This document shows, piece by piece, positions 7,606-8,418 of a stretch of DNA of 64,000 bases. The position numbers were made by a program, and so were the translations under genes. The notes under the pieces were generated by a model that had not been told where the DNA came from, did not search any database, and saw nothing but the letters and a program-made list of their open reading frames with translations. Positions within the stretch are counted from its first letter, which is position 1. Every line of letters begins with the position of its first letter. Origin of the DNA: Natronosalvus amylolyticus (GTDB lineage: Archaea > Halobacteriota > Halobacteria > Halobacteriales > Natrialbaceae); assembly GCF_024298845.1 (NCBI RefSeq), contig NZ_CP101156.1, forward strand, positions 682,001 to 746,000. Direction: 5' to 3'.

Positions 7606-7694
7606 GATACAAAGGCTTTGTTGAAATCCTATTCTTCGGATACATTATCGTCTGAAACAGCCGGTCGCCGAAGAGTGCATATTCAGCGCGACGA

Positions 7695-8141
7695 TTATTG
7701 CCACATAACATGTCTGTCATAAAGATCAACCAGATGTCGTAACCACCAGAAGTTCAGCACGACGGTCAGAACGGTTCCAAGAGCAGTCTTCAGCGGGTGC
7801 TGACGCCACGCAGCATACAGCGTGTAGATGCTTGTCAGCACAGCTGCCGTACTGAAAATGTTTGGCTTGGATACCCCGAGGATACCGTGGCCTTCTTCTC
7901 GAACCCACCACTGTTGAGCGAGAACGCCCCGCGTCATCCATGCTTCTTCATCCTTGGGAGGAGAGAATGAGATCGGGTTGACTACTCCCCACAGTATCGA
8001 GAGTAACAAGAGACGCCAAGAACGCCGGTAAATAGCATACGCAACAGCAGGAGCAATCGGGATTCGCGTCCAGACGCTTTTTGGGTTCGAATGGCGCCTC
8101 CAAAACCACTCCTCAACCTCATCAGAATCACCGGAAGCCAT
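7695..8141 (-). CDS. DUF6653-like small membrane protein
   Basis: A 148-residue protein with an N-terminal W-x-x-RHSNPKSVWTR signature, an NPISFSPP motif near residue 55 and two or three hydrophobic segments (about 29-50, 95-112 and 120-135). This pattern matches what I recall of the DUF6653 family of archaeal and bacterial membrane proteins, whose function is unknown. A TATA-like GTTTATTC at 8166-8173 (minus strand) sits about 27 bases before the ATG at 8141, so it has its own leaderless promoter. Both the gene and the promoter lie inside the TIR-bounded element, so this is a candidate cargo gene. Confidence 0.75.
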   Translation of the reverse strand: MASGDSDEVEEWFWRRHSNPKSVWTRIPIAPAVAYAIYRRSWRLLLLSILWGVVNPISFSPPKDEEAWMTRGVLAQQWWVREEGHGILGVSKPNIFSTAAVLTSIYTLYAAWRQHPLKTALGTVLTVVLNFWWLRHLVDLYDRHVMWQ

Positions 8142-8165
8142 AGCTAACAGTACGAGTTTCTCGAG

Positions 8166-8174
8166 AATAAACGT
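8166..8174 (-). promoter_or_regulatory. TATA-like element of the DUF6653-like gene
   Basis: On the minus strand GTTTATTC lies about 27 bases before the ATG at 8141. It is inside the mobile element, so the cargo gene moves with its promoter. Confidence 0.45.
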
Positions 8175-8418
8175 TGTCGGTAGTGAACACAGATGATGAC
8201 TACAGTCTCTGTACTGACTGCAACCGGGGCAGAAAATATCACTTACTGAGGATTTTAACAGAGCCGATACAAAGGAACGACTAGATATGACCTTAACCTA
8301 CGCTGGAGTCCGGACGGAACGCTCGTCTCGATACATTCCACCTTCTCCAACGTAGGACACTCTTACGCCGTCCACGTCGAATCGATTGTAGGCAAACACC
8401 CGAATCGGTCGATCCTGA

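Follow-up and report, generated by a model that had tools for sequence, protein, structure and literature searches.

A 652-bp element with IS5-type ends and a DUF6653 passenger gene, very probably a mobile insertion cassette, in Natronosalvus amylolyticus

MIC231 of Bacillus cereus is an example of a mobile insertion cassette (MIC). Cassettes of this kind, which have insertion sequence (IS) ends but no transposase, and ISs which carry passenger genes (tIS) are known classes of element (PMC3129680). The ~520-bp haloarchaeal MITEs ISH2 of Halobacterium and HqIRS32 of Haloquadratum contain a non-transposase ORF that is reported to be expressed, ISH2 being described as the sole coding MITE of Haloquadratum (PMC3119063). 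The element considered here resembles these in its small size and non-transposase ORF, and is set apart by their description, in which no cargo exchange appears. Like a MIC, it has IS-type terminal inverted repeats (TIRs) around a coding passenger without a transposase and a duplication of the length made by its candidate partner, a related IS whose cognate transposase would mobilize it; it differs in having IS5-type ends, an archaeal host, DUF6653 cargo, and many sister cassettes with a common junction. Its autonomous relatives (L090, L095, L110, L174, L177, L186, L187 and C1:948826-950767) combine a transposase with a passenger as the tIS do (PMC3129680), whereas the element itself lacks the transposase. 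A search of the open-access literature returned no report of this cargo-carrying IS5 group. What looks new is the scale and modularity, that is, an IS5-type backbone found across the Halobacteriales with near-universal, apparently exchangeable cargo at one junction.

The window analysed is a 64,000-nucleotide stretch of contig NZ_CP101156.1 of N. amylolyticus (positions 682,001 to 746,000). The element occupies 652 bp of it (7614-8265) and has the following features.

7606..7613, no strand: left copy of the 8-bp target duplication, GATACAAA
7614-7630, no strand: left TIR, GGCTTTGTTGAAATCCT
7614..7678, no strand: left end, consisting of TIR GGCTTTGTTGAAATCCT and subterminal sequence, of the cargo-side type of autonomous IS5 elements
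7678..8217, minus strand: DUF6653 cargo module of ~540 bp, with breakpoints common to three other genera and 92-94% DNA identity
7695..8141, minus strand: passenger gene for a 148-aa DUF6653 membrane protein (PF20358), with hydropathic segments and clade support of 1.0
8167..8173 (approximate), minus strand: predicted TATA-like box (TTTATT region), ~28 bp upstream of the ATG and kept in four copies
8218..8265, no strand: right end, consisting of TIR GGCTCTGTTAAAATCCT and subterminal sequence, of the transposase-side type
8249-8265 (read 8265-8249 on the minus strand): right TIR, the reverse complement being GGCTCTGTTAAAATCCT
8266..8273, no strand: right copy of the 8-bp target duplication, GATACAAA

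An earlier note, made from the letters of the window alone, had described 15-base TIRs with 13 identical positions, flanked by an 8-bp direct repeat, around a 652-bp unit without a transposase. These particulars were exact. The two GATACAAA copies match perfectly (8/8), the repeat finder having returned 10 bp because GG adjoins both; the TIRs are identical at 13 of their first 15 positions and extend to 15 of 17; and the DUF6653 ORF is the only sizeable gene present. A perfect 8-bp duplication with TIRs matching at 13 or more of 15 positions and spaced 100-2000 bp apart occurs once in the real window and arose three times in 100 shuffled windows, so that ~0.03 such structures are expected per window from structure alone. 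That figure, together with the fact that DUF6653 is a common chromosomal family mostly without such ends, is what could be said for coincidental repeats around an ordinary chromosomal gene. We give this explanation virtually no credence, and regard it as refuted, because an IS family that occurs throughout the order matches both ends together with 34-68 nt next to them, which settles the reality of the element; furthermore, the gene's close relatives are found at other, unrelated loci, accompanied by remnants of these ends.

The earlier note would have counted it against its reading if these ends had no other copy in any haloarchaeal genome, which is not the case. Within the family, 106 of the 125 genomes contain the 17-mer GGCTYTGTTGAAAYCCT, and within the order 274 of 392 do, against 0 for the reversed control pattern. 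A DNA search with the element matched a similar left end in many genomes of the family, and brought up same-end elements bounded by perfect 8-bp duplications. Among them are the autonomous ISs that the note had suggested looking for, namely L090 (1238 bp), L095 (1177 bp) and L110 (1192 bp), which come from the same family of organisms and each encode a 273-aa transposase. The L090 transposase is assigned to the IS5 family (NCBIfam NF033579, 219.6 bits; cut-off 140), as is that of L067 from the same genome as the window (203.6 bits; cut-off 140), and those of L090 and L110 match Pfam DDE_Tnp_1 (PF01609). The duplication made by L090, L095, L110 and C1:948826-950767 is 8 bp long, the same as that of the window element. 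This length is compatible with the ISH1 subgroup of IS5, and we take the partner elements to be candidate members of an ISH1-like subgroup. They resemble the IS5 family in transposase and duplication, but differ in the presence of a passenger gene.

The correspondence extends beyond the TIRs. At the 7614 end, identity to the cargo-side ends of L090, L095, L110 and L186 is 85-89% over 53-68 nt. At the 8265 end it is 82% over 34-38 nt against the transposase-side ends of L090, L095 and L110, and 83-86% over 57-70 nt against the corresponding part of the transposase-less elements L093 and L101. Judged by these alignments, the window element keeps both unequal ends of an IS5-family insertion sequence, in the right polarity. 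An IS6-family transposase also makes 8-bp duplications, and the N. amylolyticus genome does encode an IS6-like transposase (PF13610); nevertheless, movement of the unit by such an enzyme is scarcely conceivable, since the IS6-type ends of that genome (GGCACTGTCTAGTTTA) differ, and the intact elements with window-type GGCTYTGTTGAAAYCC ends carry IS5 transposases. The IS6-type element of that genome, with ends GGCACTGTCTAGTTTA/GGCACTGTCTAG unlike those of the window, was rejected as the partner.

The 652-bp unit is thus very probably a non-autonomous element of the mobile insertion cassette type, having unequal IS5 ends, an 8-bp duplication, and DUF6653 in place of a transposase. An IS5-type transposase from another element in the cell would recognize the ends and move the unit, leaving the 8-bp duplication. 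The 4.2-Mb genome is that of N. amylolyticus, which belongs to the Natrialbaceae, as do Natronoglomus and Salinadaptatus. It contains two further short elements with window-type ends and perfect duplications, of 312 bp (C3:100112-100423) and 125 bp (C4:21740-21864). A 1942-bp element with a perfect duplication (C1:948826-950767) encodes an intact 283-aa transposase and an 84-aa ORF; its ends (GGCCTTGTTGAAACCCT) are 2 and 4 of 17 bases off those of the window element. One end of each kind is present in a 2111-bp element (C1:2284165-2286275, L069 666-2776; duplication 7/8) that has genes for a BAT/HTH_10 regulator and for a HalOD1 protein, and none for a transposase. This mixture of ends suggests that a single transposase may tolerate such variation and accept both variants, and the C1:948826 transposase, or an imported relative, may have moved the window copy. 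A second IS5-type group, with ends GGCYNTGGTGAATC, is represented by L082 1466-2403 in N. amylolyticus, which has the duplication GATAATTG and a stop within its transposase, and by L136 2985-3922, which adjoins the DUF6653 copy in Natronoglomus.

Movement without a resident transposase can be followed in a sister element. A 438-bp HalOD1 element is present twice in genome G108 (L199 470-907 and L200 427-864). Both copies lack a transposase; they are 90% identical throughout their length and are flanked by different perfect 8-bp duplications (TACTCAGT and ACTATTTC). By this comparison, which concerns the sister element of G108 and not the window copy, the two are separate insertions made without a transposase of their own, from which we conclude that elements of this design transpose in trans. 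Movement in trans by a host IS, the reading given in the earlier note, is consequently the best one for the window element also, in view of the same-end IS5 elements in the family, the related IS in the genome, and the sister that inserted twice.

The same note had called passenger genes on such small elements rare, which proved wrong for this group. Exact 17-mers facing each other within 5 kb gave 28 pairs among the matches listed, 16 of them with an identical 8-bp duplication and two with 7/8. Among these 18 listed elements the 273-aa transposase is intact in six, broken in three and missing from nine, and 17 of the 18 have an additional ORF, 55 aa or longer, the exception being a 125-bp element. 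Passenger genes are the rule in this IS5 end group. The cargo supported by Pfam comprises Amphi-Trp, a TehB-like methyltransferase, alpha/beta hydrolases, a GNAT acetyltransferase, GYD, a PQQ-repeat protein and HTH_10, to which the DNA search added HalOD1, PAS and RDD proteins. For several other cargo ORFs, of 56-106 aa and with hydrophobic stretches, curated Pfam gave no match, and chance could account for some of them. Small membrane and signalling proteins (HalOD1, PAS, HTH_10/BAT, RDD, GYD, Amphi-Trp and DUF6653) seem to travel between haloarchaea in minimal IS-ended units, which are easily missed because they are so short, and such travel offers a testable mechanism for the patchy distribution of these proteins.

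Two larger structures were also seen. L195 2-4911 (G031:C32) is an entire 4.9-kb contig with these TIRs at both ends, a transposase, and three further long ORFs, one of which specifies a nine-TM protein; its target duplication is unreadable because the contig stops at the TIRs. L191 and L192 (G032) are the same 1471-bp element, with a DUF4870 gene, present twice in the chromosome, where the second copy looks like a segment duplication rather than a transposition because the flanks are reverse-complementary.

The passenger of the window element was correctly recognized as a DUF6653-like membrane-protein gene. The ORF (7695-8141, minus strand) specifies 148 aa with about three hydropathic segments and matches Pfam DUF6653 (PF20358; E = 2.4e-14, 53.7 bits, cut-off 27). 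We know of no function for this family. The TATA-like box noted previously corresponds to GTTTAT ~28 bp 5′ of the ATG, a distance conserved in four copies of the gene and as expected for the predicted promoter of a leaderless haloarchaeal transcript. The gene is presumably transcribed from its own box, and its product may well be made and useful. Pairwise dN/dS values between three copies are 0.22, 0.45 and 0.87, with few changes each, and give a weak indication of selection; W, R, N and P residues that do not vary among 14 aligned homologues suggest a constrained protein.

Three other genera have close copies of the gene (90-92% identical in protein, 92-94% in DNA), which group with the window gene in a single clade (support 1.0). 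Chromosomal DUF6653 genes lie apart from it, at 28-53% identity, and have no such ends. The wider family was considered as IS-borne and rejected, the TIRs around the 28-53% identical genes being chance pairs only. The flanks of the three relatives are unrelated to those of the window but include remains of the same ends; no intact sister insertion is found among the three because each has lost one or both ends, and a single intact copy of this DUF6653 element is known. The Salinadaptatus copy is frameshifted. The empty site that had been proposed for a search of relatives was not found: the joined flanks match no other genome among the 125, and at this locus the genus shares the neighbouring rmlA-like gene only. 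This result, the single intact copy, the incomplete relatives and the differing ends of the intact 283-aa transposase element count against the cassette reading.

The four copies share a common 5′ junction at TCAGTACAGAG (~8217), which is identical in the four genomes and preceded by four different sequences. These are a short left end in the window, a short left end plus ~27 bp which repeat the motif in Salinadaptatus (L138), the last 26 codons and the stop of an IS5 transposase of the same family in Natronoglomus (L136), and something else in L137. In L136 a further IS5 element is situated immediately upstream. The 3′ junction lies at GCTGAATAT (~7680), beyond which the window and L136 have the same IS end; L137 and L138 diverge right after CTGAATAT. 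The DUF6653 cargo probably came from an autonomous relative with both a transposase and DUF6653, partly preserved in Natronoglomus mannanivorans, and the cassette would have arisen either by loss of the transposase module or by transfer of the cargo module.

The arrangement in Natronoglomus, where the same cargo lies behind the 3′ end of a transposase, and the frequency of autonomous elements with cargo could be taken as signs of decay in place, in which transposase and DUF6653 arrived together, the transposase was deleted later, and the window copy never moved without a transposase of its own. We consider this unlikely. The compact left end is also present in the transposase-less elements L093 and L101 and in the C3 element, and Salinadaptatus has the same short form, which argues that the transposase-less form is older than the window insertion; the sister element, moreover, did transpose without a transposase.

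The autonomous elements have ~888 bp in common (~73-95% identity); this stretch begins at the TIR and runs ~14 bp beyond the transposase stop, where the similarity ends. L177, L191 and L194, for example, are 94-95% identical over the shared part and have unrelated cargo beyond it. Many autonomous elements have a TCARTACAGG-like motif at the cargo junction, and many transposase-less ones have it ~45-55 nt in from the left end. In relaxed form it occurs at 0.70 per kb in 37 elements versus 0.08 per kb in the window, a contrast that is partly circular because the pattern was chosen after the junctions were seen. Of the 10 sites in the 4.2-Mb genome that have the motif TGCTGNATANAGRG (0 for the reversed control), most prove, by comparison with the positions of the ends, to lie in or close to elements of this family. 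Several related border sequences fold as hairpins of 8-11 bp, the window's own copy folding no better than shuffled sequences. The motif rule is not universal, since the 84/82-aa ORF region shared by L067 and L069, both of N. amylolyticus, does not break at the motifs.

It is possible, though we put it forward only tentatively, that the cargo consists of discrete gene modules exchanged between backbones at a fixed junction marked by TCARTACAGG, just past the transposase stop or a little way in from the left end, and that TGCTGAATA-type motifs, some of which form hairpins, mark the opposite border. Cargo might be gained through use of the outer ends and exchange at short shared motifs. If so, this would be a haloarchaeal transposon-borne cassette system which shuffles single genes via motif recombination or a dedicated recombinase. 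Integron cassettes offer an analogy only: they are likewise single-gene modules with repeated border motifs, some hairpin-forming, whereas here only one module has been traced in several contexts. With a fixed cargo junction, and with many natural donor/recipient pairs available, it becomes directly testable how simple ISs acquire genes. L201 545-2195 (G141) may be read as a snapshot of element growth: a transposase module is adjoined by a 507-bp cassette that has an inner end of its own, and the 1651-bp composite is flanked by the duplication GAAATAGA at its outer ends only. Short hairpins of the form TGCTGAAT-loop-ATTCAGCA were also observed near module borders in L177, L203, L067, L020, L137 and L138.
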